Shown: positions 29,604 to 29,675 of the stretch, in pieces
Position numbering within the stretch: the stretch's first letter is position 1
How the letters are laid out: each line of letters starts with the position of its first letter
Source: a virus
Virus record (IMG/VR): IMGVR_UViG_3300021963_000411
Span: 1-32,996 of that record
Length of the DNA: 32,996 bases
Reading direction: 5' to 3' (one strand)
Translations under genes and position numbers: made by a program
Notes under the pieces: model-generated
The model's database searches: none
What the model was told of the DNA's origin: nothing
The model's input: the letters and a program-made list of their open reading frames with translations, nothing else

Positions 29604-29675
29604 ATGTGGACTAAACCTACTGCTACAGAAATGCGTTTTGGCTTTGAAGTAACCATGTATATAATGAATAAATAG
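29604..29675 (+). CDS. pqqA: PqqA, precursor peptide of pyrroloquinoline quinone
   Basis: A 23-codon gene. The peptide starts [19 protein letters not shown] and ends with IMNK. PqqA peptides are 22-24 residues with the form MW-KP----R-G-EVT-Y; Glu15 and Tyr19, the two residues joined to make PQQ, are in the exact positions. PqqE and PqqD act on this peptide before PqqB, PqqC and proteases finish the cofactor, used by periplasmic methanol, glucose and other dehydrogenases. AAGGAGA (29591-29597), 6 nt before ATG, is an excellent ribosome binding site. It is the only plus-strand gene within the leftward operon, and no other pqq gene is present, so it would feed the host's own PQQ enzymes. Identity is by strong pattern match; benefit to the phage is inference. 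Confidence 0.88.
   Translation: [23 protein letters not shown]

Follow-up and report, generated by a model that had tools for sequence, protein, structure and literature searches.

The initial annotation proposed that a 23-codon frame in a viral record is pqqA, the gene for the precursor peptide of PQQ. Is this frame a genuine pqqA, and what would a phage gain from the peptide alone? We addressed these questions in the window, by which we mean the whole 32,996-base stretch of DNA analysed, and then across other phages and their likely hosts.

A full-length pqqA gene in a phage genome

The frame starts with the ATG at 29604, and its stop codon ends at 29675, exactly as annotated. The translated peptide matched Pfam PF08042 with 40.7 bits (E=2.2e-10) over profile positions 1-19 of 19, and the NCBIfam equivalog TIGR02107 with 39.3 bits (E=4.1e-10) over positions 1-21 of 21. 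Both scores are about twice the curated cut-offs (21.1 bits for PF08042 and 20 bits for TIGR02107), and 29604-29675 was the single PqqA profile match in the 32,996-base record. The profile test proposed for the frame was therefore significant with both models. As had been read from the letters, Glu15 and Tyr19 lie in the PqqA register, and the cross-link pair Glu-x-x-x-Tyr is present as E15-V-T-M-Y19. The ribosome binding site was also described correctly, as a strong Shine-Dalgarno sequence precedes the ATG. Positions 29604-29675 are a genuine, full-length and intact PqqA coding gene. PHROGs holds no family for the PqqA peptide, and an Rfam search with the pqqA region returned no family match. 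The features of the locus are as follows.

29132..29509, minus strand: cell-wall hydrolase (Hydrolase_2, endolysin-like), neighbour of pqqA; PF07486 E=1.8e-15, phrog_938
29565..29570, plus strand: TATAAT -10 box of a putative private promoter, 34-39 bases 5' of the pqqA ATG; from sequence
29590..29598, plus strand: strong Shine-Dalgarno sequence AAAGGAGAT, with 5 bases between its end and the ATG; from sequence
29604..29675, plus strand: pqqA, 23 codons plus stop; PF08042 E=2.2e-10, TIGR02107 E=4.1e-10, dN/dS 0.075 (21 sequences)
29646..29648, plus strand: Glu15 codon, whose glutamate becomes part of PQQ; from sequence, invariant in the 21-copy set
29658..29660, plus strand: Tyr19 codon, whose tyrosine becomes part of PQQ; from sequence, invariant in the 21-copy set
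29699..29971, minus strand: open reading frame for a 90-aa protein with an acidic DDSVPF tail, neighbour of pqqA; SSB-like by tail and position only
29975..30523, minus strand: YqaJ/RecE-like recombination exonuclease, neighbour of pqqA; PF09588 E=2.6e-14

The gene has a probable promoter of its own, judging from the -10 box, whose GCGTATAATTC context was seen again in relatives, and from a weak -35. The latter region is poor (TTACGC, 29542-29547, 17-base spacer), and a two-box promoter scan of the window did not pick up the pqqA promoter. We found no strong terminator directly 3' of the window pqqA.

All the open reading frames of the gene layout between 27483 and 31473 lie on the minus strand, and pqqA opposes both of its neighbours. 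The claim that it is opposite to every surrounding gene holds for this block, which is itself flanked by plus-strand genes. No gene of the window layout overlaps pqqA in antisense. Pfam and PHROG searches gave no match for the 90-aa neighbour; in the environmental genome ctXG6705, the gene at the equivalent position is annotated as a putative SSB. Within the same block, 27483-28322 (minus strand) encodes a phosphoadenosine phosphosulfate reductase-like protein (phrog_424 E=1.4e-47, PF01507 E=2.8e-5), a candidate accessory gene.

The window carries terminase, portal, capsid, tail and holin genes. Its TerL is approximately 41 to 44% identical to TerL of HTVC010P-like podoviruses, Rhodoferax phage P26218 and Venkman, and the window proteins scanned did not include an integrase. 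When we looked for pqqB, pqqC, pqqD, pqqE, xoxF and PQQ-dehydrogenase genes, none was detected in the window, which upholds the description of pqqA as its sole pqq gene. The window gene consequently lacks adjacency to pqqBCDE, a feature that is usual for PqqA and not defining, as many host copies are free-standing.

Spread, layout and selection of pqqA in phages

Using tblastn with the PqqA peptide, we covered 50,697 phage records. Intact pqqA was present in nine methylophage isolate records (P19250A, Venkman, MEP301, MEP401, MEP402 and four Melnitz), as well as in ctXG6705 (Manatee Spring). These nine are all the isolates referred to here, being the methylophage isolate records found; a peptide search would not list isolates without pqqA. 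Terminase searches revealed no additional methylophage isolate among the matches listed. The taxonomy also lists MEP431-434 and two newer phages of Methylophilaceae, none of which appeared in the phage-collection search results. A search with a Methylorubrum-type PqqA (approximate query sequence) recovered only the Melnitz copies again, weakly.

None of the nine isolate records or ctXG6705 has a pqqA annotation. In its place there is either no feature or a small "hypothetical protein" (antisense where the record was read). The Melnitz gene (L127:5001-5164) is in a region with tRNAs, where it precedes tRNA-Leu by about 10 bases, and the record shows an antisense "hypothetical protein", MelnitzEXVC044M_152, over it. 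Phage pqqA goes unmentioned in the papers that describe Venkman, MEP401/402 and Melnitz (for Melnitz, PMC9004378). The gene has probably been overlooked on account of its size, as gene callers leave out frames shorter than about 30 codons.

At least 120 IMG/VR stretches matched a degenerate DNA pattern for GFEVTMY, and a stricter DNA pattern for pqqA gave zero viral matches. Among the matches listed, nearly all frames were short (22 to 25 codons) and started with MW or MxW. A Shine-Dalgarno-like site was located 5' of 126 of the 126 viral pqqA copies among the matches listed, compared to 5.3% of control positions. The frame and its ribosome binding site thus recur across related phages, and the refutation proposed initially from a lack of such conservation does not apply. 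The suggestion that pqqA is widespread in viral genomes and unannotated is confirmed by the nine isolates, the at least 120 contigs and the missing annotations; the gene is patchy and not universal.

The phages that carry pqqA belong to several lineages. In terminase searches, the window and Venkman grouped with HTVC010P-like phages, MEP301 with BcepC6B-like phages, and MEP401/402 with ICP2-like phages, and the nearest relatives of the P19250A terminase differed from those of the window terminase. Pairwise similarity among the window, P19250A, MEP402 and MEP301 terminases was marginal at most. Melnitz is a T4-like myovirus (PMC9004378). By these sequence comparisons, pqqA-bearing phages are several unrelated lineages, comprising podo-, sipho- and myoviruses. 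In addition, divergent PqqA types resembling those of methanotrophs and other gammaproteobacteria were located on two contigs that carry portal and terminase genes (L025, L028) and on a third with a capsid gene (L024). A further phage contig, L060, also has a divergent type. The sequences of these four contigs suggest that phages of other PQQ producers may carry pqqA too.

The orientation seen in the window is one of several. The neighbours were read by a crude ORF caller, and among the 115 copies listed with both neighbours readable, 44 were opposite to both, 40 were on the same strand as both and 31 were mixed. The median gap 5' of pqqA in these 115 copies was 104 bases. Among the matches listed, TATAAT was enriched 30-39 and 50-59 bases 5' of viral pqqA.

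We compared close relatives at a single site. In P19250A, G095 and G061, pqqA lies between the same genes. G100 (L620:6804-7119), whose terminase is 97% identical to that of P19250A, has a syntenic gap without pqqA. P19250A-type phages thus show presence and absence at one site, with a terminator-like GGGGCTTAAAATGCCCCTTTTTT; the G100 gap keeps a terminator-like GGGGCTTAATTGCCCC. These features, with the -10 box and the intergenic position of the window gene, bear on the comparison with a moron-type cassette, which has a promoter and a terminator of its own, is inserted between genes and is found at one site in some relatives and missing from others. A conserved stretch, GGCGGTTAAGCCGACA...GAGGATGTAGTAAGTAACGAGTTTTTCGGCTTT, occurs just 3' of pqqA in L440, L441, L444 and L446. 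It had no match in Rfam and is possibly a terminator or a small RNA. We picked 31 long relatives of the window by their capsid or terminase, regardless of pqqA, and seven had the gene. Among those picked by capsid, it was present in 5 of the 8 with at least 86% identity and in 0 of the 17 with 81% or less. For P19250A and MEP402, 26 long relatives were likewise chosen regardless of pqqA, and seven carried it (6/15 and 1/11, in that order). Absence from these long relatives is a soft observation, as the records may be incomplete. Phage pqqA is an accessory and not a core gene, patchy even among close relatives, and it is dispensable, because near-full-length relatives, including G100, are without it.

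To measure selection, we used 21 copies found by profile or tblastn, for which the peptide motif was not required. This set gave pS 0.52, pN 0.063 and dN/dS 0.075 (codon bootstrap 0.024-0.166). The ratio is approximate, since pairs are non-independent and synonymous divergence is high, and its direction is clear. The invariance of Glu15 rests on this set, as the larger viral set was gathered with a pattern demanding Glu15. The larger set, picked by a peptide-based pattern, had 114 distinct pqqA sequences at the DNA level and 45 at the peptide level among the matches listed. The window and its relative G024 share 71 of the 72 bases of pqqA, and their two adjacent proteins are 57 to 65% identical. 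The peptide is what selection keeps, because synonymous sites are highly diverged and the peptide is almost fixed. Purifying selection on the PqqA peptide is strong across unrelated phages, and the dN/dS of 0.075 denotes selection at the protein level of the kind looked for in an auxiliary metabolic gene.

Hosts and the proposed role of the phage peptide

Methylophilaceae (OM43, LD28/Methylopumilus) are abundant methanol oxidisers of the coastal sea and of lakes. We collected 23 genomes, mostly Methylophilaceae by record title, with 1 to 12 pqqA each; only copy number is informative here because the genomes were reached through a pqqA match. Methylophilaceae genomes typically have 3 to 12 pqqA and normally one pqqBCDE set (PMC4109929). 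The two commonest free-standing host peptides were also the commonest phage peptides in the viral set as listed, and the viral copies listed matched their nearest host copy in the sample at a median of 67/72 bases. Hosts multiply precursor copies without the enzymes and share their peptides with the phages, which therefore follow the hosts' own pattern. The likely hosts are of the Methylophilaceae type, and that of the window is presumed from its relatives and its peptide. In five host genomes (L141, L144, L197, L211 and L219) we saw two slightly different tandem pqqA about 200 bases apart, encoding MWTQP[TQ]ATEM..CN[KR] and MWT[TK]PAATEM..MNK.

One PqqA is used per PQQ, and PqqB-E turn over repeatedly. 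According to our model, host transcription would fall during infection; the pathway enzymes would persist and the PqqA peptide would be depleted first, because PqqA alone is consumed molecule for molecule. Phage PqqA would be taken up by host PqqD/PqqE and PqqB/PqqC to yield PQQ. With just the peptide replaced, the PQQ-dependent methanol dehydrogenase (XoxF or MxaF) would continue to receive its cofactor, and energy would continue to flow to phage replication. Supplying PqqA would be the cheapest fix for a phage that shuts down host expression. None of the 34 pqqA-bearing records had a PqqE above cut-off, and the substrate-only reading fits because of this absence. An extract of Gluconobacter oxydans is reported to turn added PqqA into PQQ (Wang 2021, cited in PMC9851590), which supports the feasibility of peptide supply. 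In engineered G. oxydans, either plasmid pqqA alone or the pqq cluster led to better growth (PMC8102297). The marginal benefit of a phage copy is not obvious because the hosts already have several. The growth medium for H5P1 in the Melnitz study includes 1 nM PQQ (PMC9004378), an amount that could hide an effect of the phage gene. We consider it quite likely that phage PqqA, the product of a true coding gene, works as a substrate-only auxiliary metabolic gene, the benefit to the phage being the part that we infer. In this role, pqqA is probably a common and overlooked means of sustaining methanol oxidation during infection.

Other readings would explain parts of these data. The patchiness among close relatives and the nearness of viral to host copies (the median of 67/72 bases for the copies as listed) would also be seen if pqqA were a host copy acquired by chance or recombination and carried without function. 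Such a passenger would not be expected to show a dN/dS of about 0.075 with high synonymous divergence, and purifying selection largely refutes this explanation. The Shine-Dalgarno sites at all 126 copies listed, the presence of pqqA in several unrelated lineages and the near-identity of the window and G024 genes beside diverged neighbours argue in the same direction, and we regard functionless carriage as improbable. A role at the DNA or RNA level, as an attachment site, as homology for recombination with host pqqA or as an RNA pairing with host pqqA mRNA, would suit a short gene that resembles host copies and stands alone on the opposite strand. Pairing and site-specific recombination need the reverse of what was observed, namely a pS of 0.52 and 114 DNA sequences for 45 peptides (as listed). 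Furthermore, the copies read in the sense direction behind ribosome binding sites, the scan of window proteins showed no integrase and Rfam gave no match. This role is very improbable.

The peptide could be made and act otherwise, as a signal or as a decoy that ties up PqqD/PqqE and so reduces PQQ production. The sequence is compatible with this, and a carrier could be titrated by surplus substrate. However, Glu15 and Tyr19 are intact, whereas a decoy would have no need of either residue and would be more likely to lose both; moreover, the hosts themselves multiply pqqA, apparently for more supply (PMC4109929). We judge such an action unlikely. Finally, host chromosome can be assembled or classified as virus, and we met real cases. 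The 72-kb "viral" contig G066 (L630:3990-8784, IMGVR_UViG_3300025120_009955) has pqqA and a xoxF-type methanol dehydrogenase, followed by formate dehydrogenase, and holds the one PQQ-dehydrogenase among the pqqA-bearing records. We rejected this XoxF as a phage methanol dehydrogenase, given its host-like neighbours and the formate dehydrogenase alongside; from its gene content, G066 is probably a host contig misfiled as virus. Acinetobacter "phage" MD-2021a (L128) was likewise rejected as an instance of phage pqqA, as its full pqqABCDE operon near ppk and fur is host chromosome. For the window, with its terminase, portal, capsid, tail and holin genes, and for the isolates, which carry pqqA, this artefact is refuted, and its chance is negligible. 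Here a host-type metabolic gene lies within genuine phage genomes.

Relation to known systems and implications

Phage PqqA has the length, the E15-V-T-M-Y19 core and nearly the sequence of the free-standing bacterial copies of Methylophilaceae, and is free-standing like them. It differs in that phage copies lie among phage neighbours, with no other PQQ gene. Cyanophage psbA is a phage auxiliary metabolic gene. Like genes of this type, pqqA is a host-like gene that would prop up host energy metabolism; unlike psbA, it gives a consumed cofactor-precursor peptide and not an enzyme or structural subunit.

The free-standing form first noted in the window stands, and its carriage by a phage is not new. 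The Lake Baikal viral population VP_266 is a methylotroph-phage scaffold with PqqA and methanol dehydrogenase (Coutinho et al. 2020, PMC7678222). It too is a methylotroph phage encoding PqqA, for which the same benefit was proposed. In VP_266, pqqA accompanies a viral methanol dehydrogenase in T4-like phages, whereas the phages described here, of podo-, sipho- and myovirus lineages, have no PQQ-related gene besides pqqA. The same study stated that P19250A has none of its AMGs (PMC7678222); contrary to this, P19250A does have pqqA by tblastn. Another study also noted virus-encoded pqqA, listing pqqA, pqqD and pqqE as viral P-cycling genes in reservoir sediment (PMC13188868). There, pqqA was read as a phosphate-solubilisation gene, and the free-standing methylophage context is absent. 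In the open-access literature, we found no earlier report of a free-standing, enzyme-free phage pqqA, of its lineage spread or of its missing annotation. Within that literature, the free-standing form, the breadth over methylophage lineages and the omission from isolate annotations are new.

Phages may have acquired peptide-only supply repeatedly, as a general strategy towards hosts that produce PQQ, reaching beyond Methylophilaceae to methanotroph-like and other gammaproteobacterial hosts; whether they have is to us an evenly balanced question. If they have, it would be the supply of PqqA that limits PQQ formation during infection. Phage pqqA offers a simple test of whether a precursor peptide, and not an enzyme, limits cofactor synthesis during infection. 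The case also shows that very short AMGs are being missed. If phages sustain PQQ synthesis by a 72-base gene, the published statement that P19250A lacks methylotrophy AMGs would need correction, and viral effects on methanol and C1 turnover would have been underestimated.
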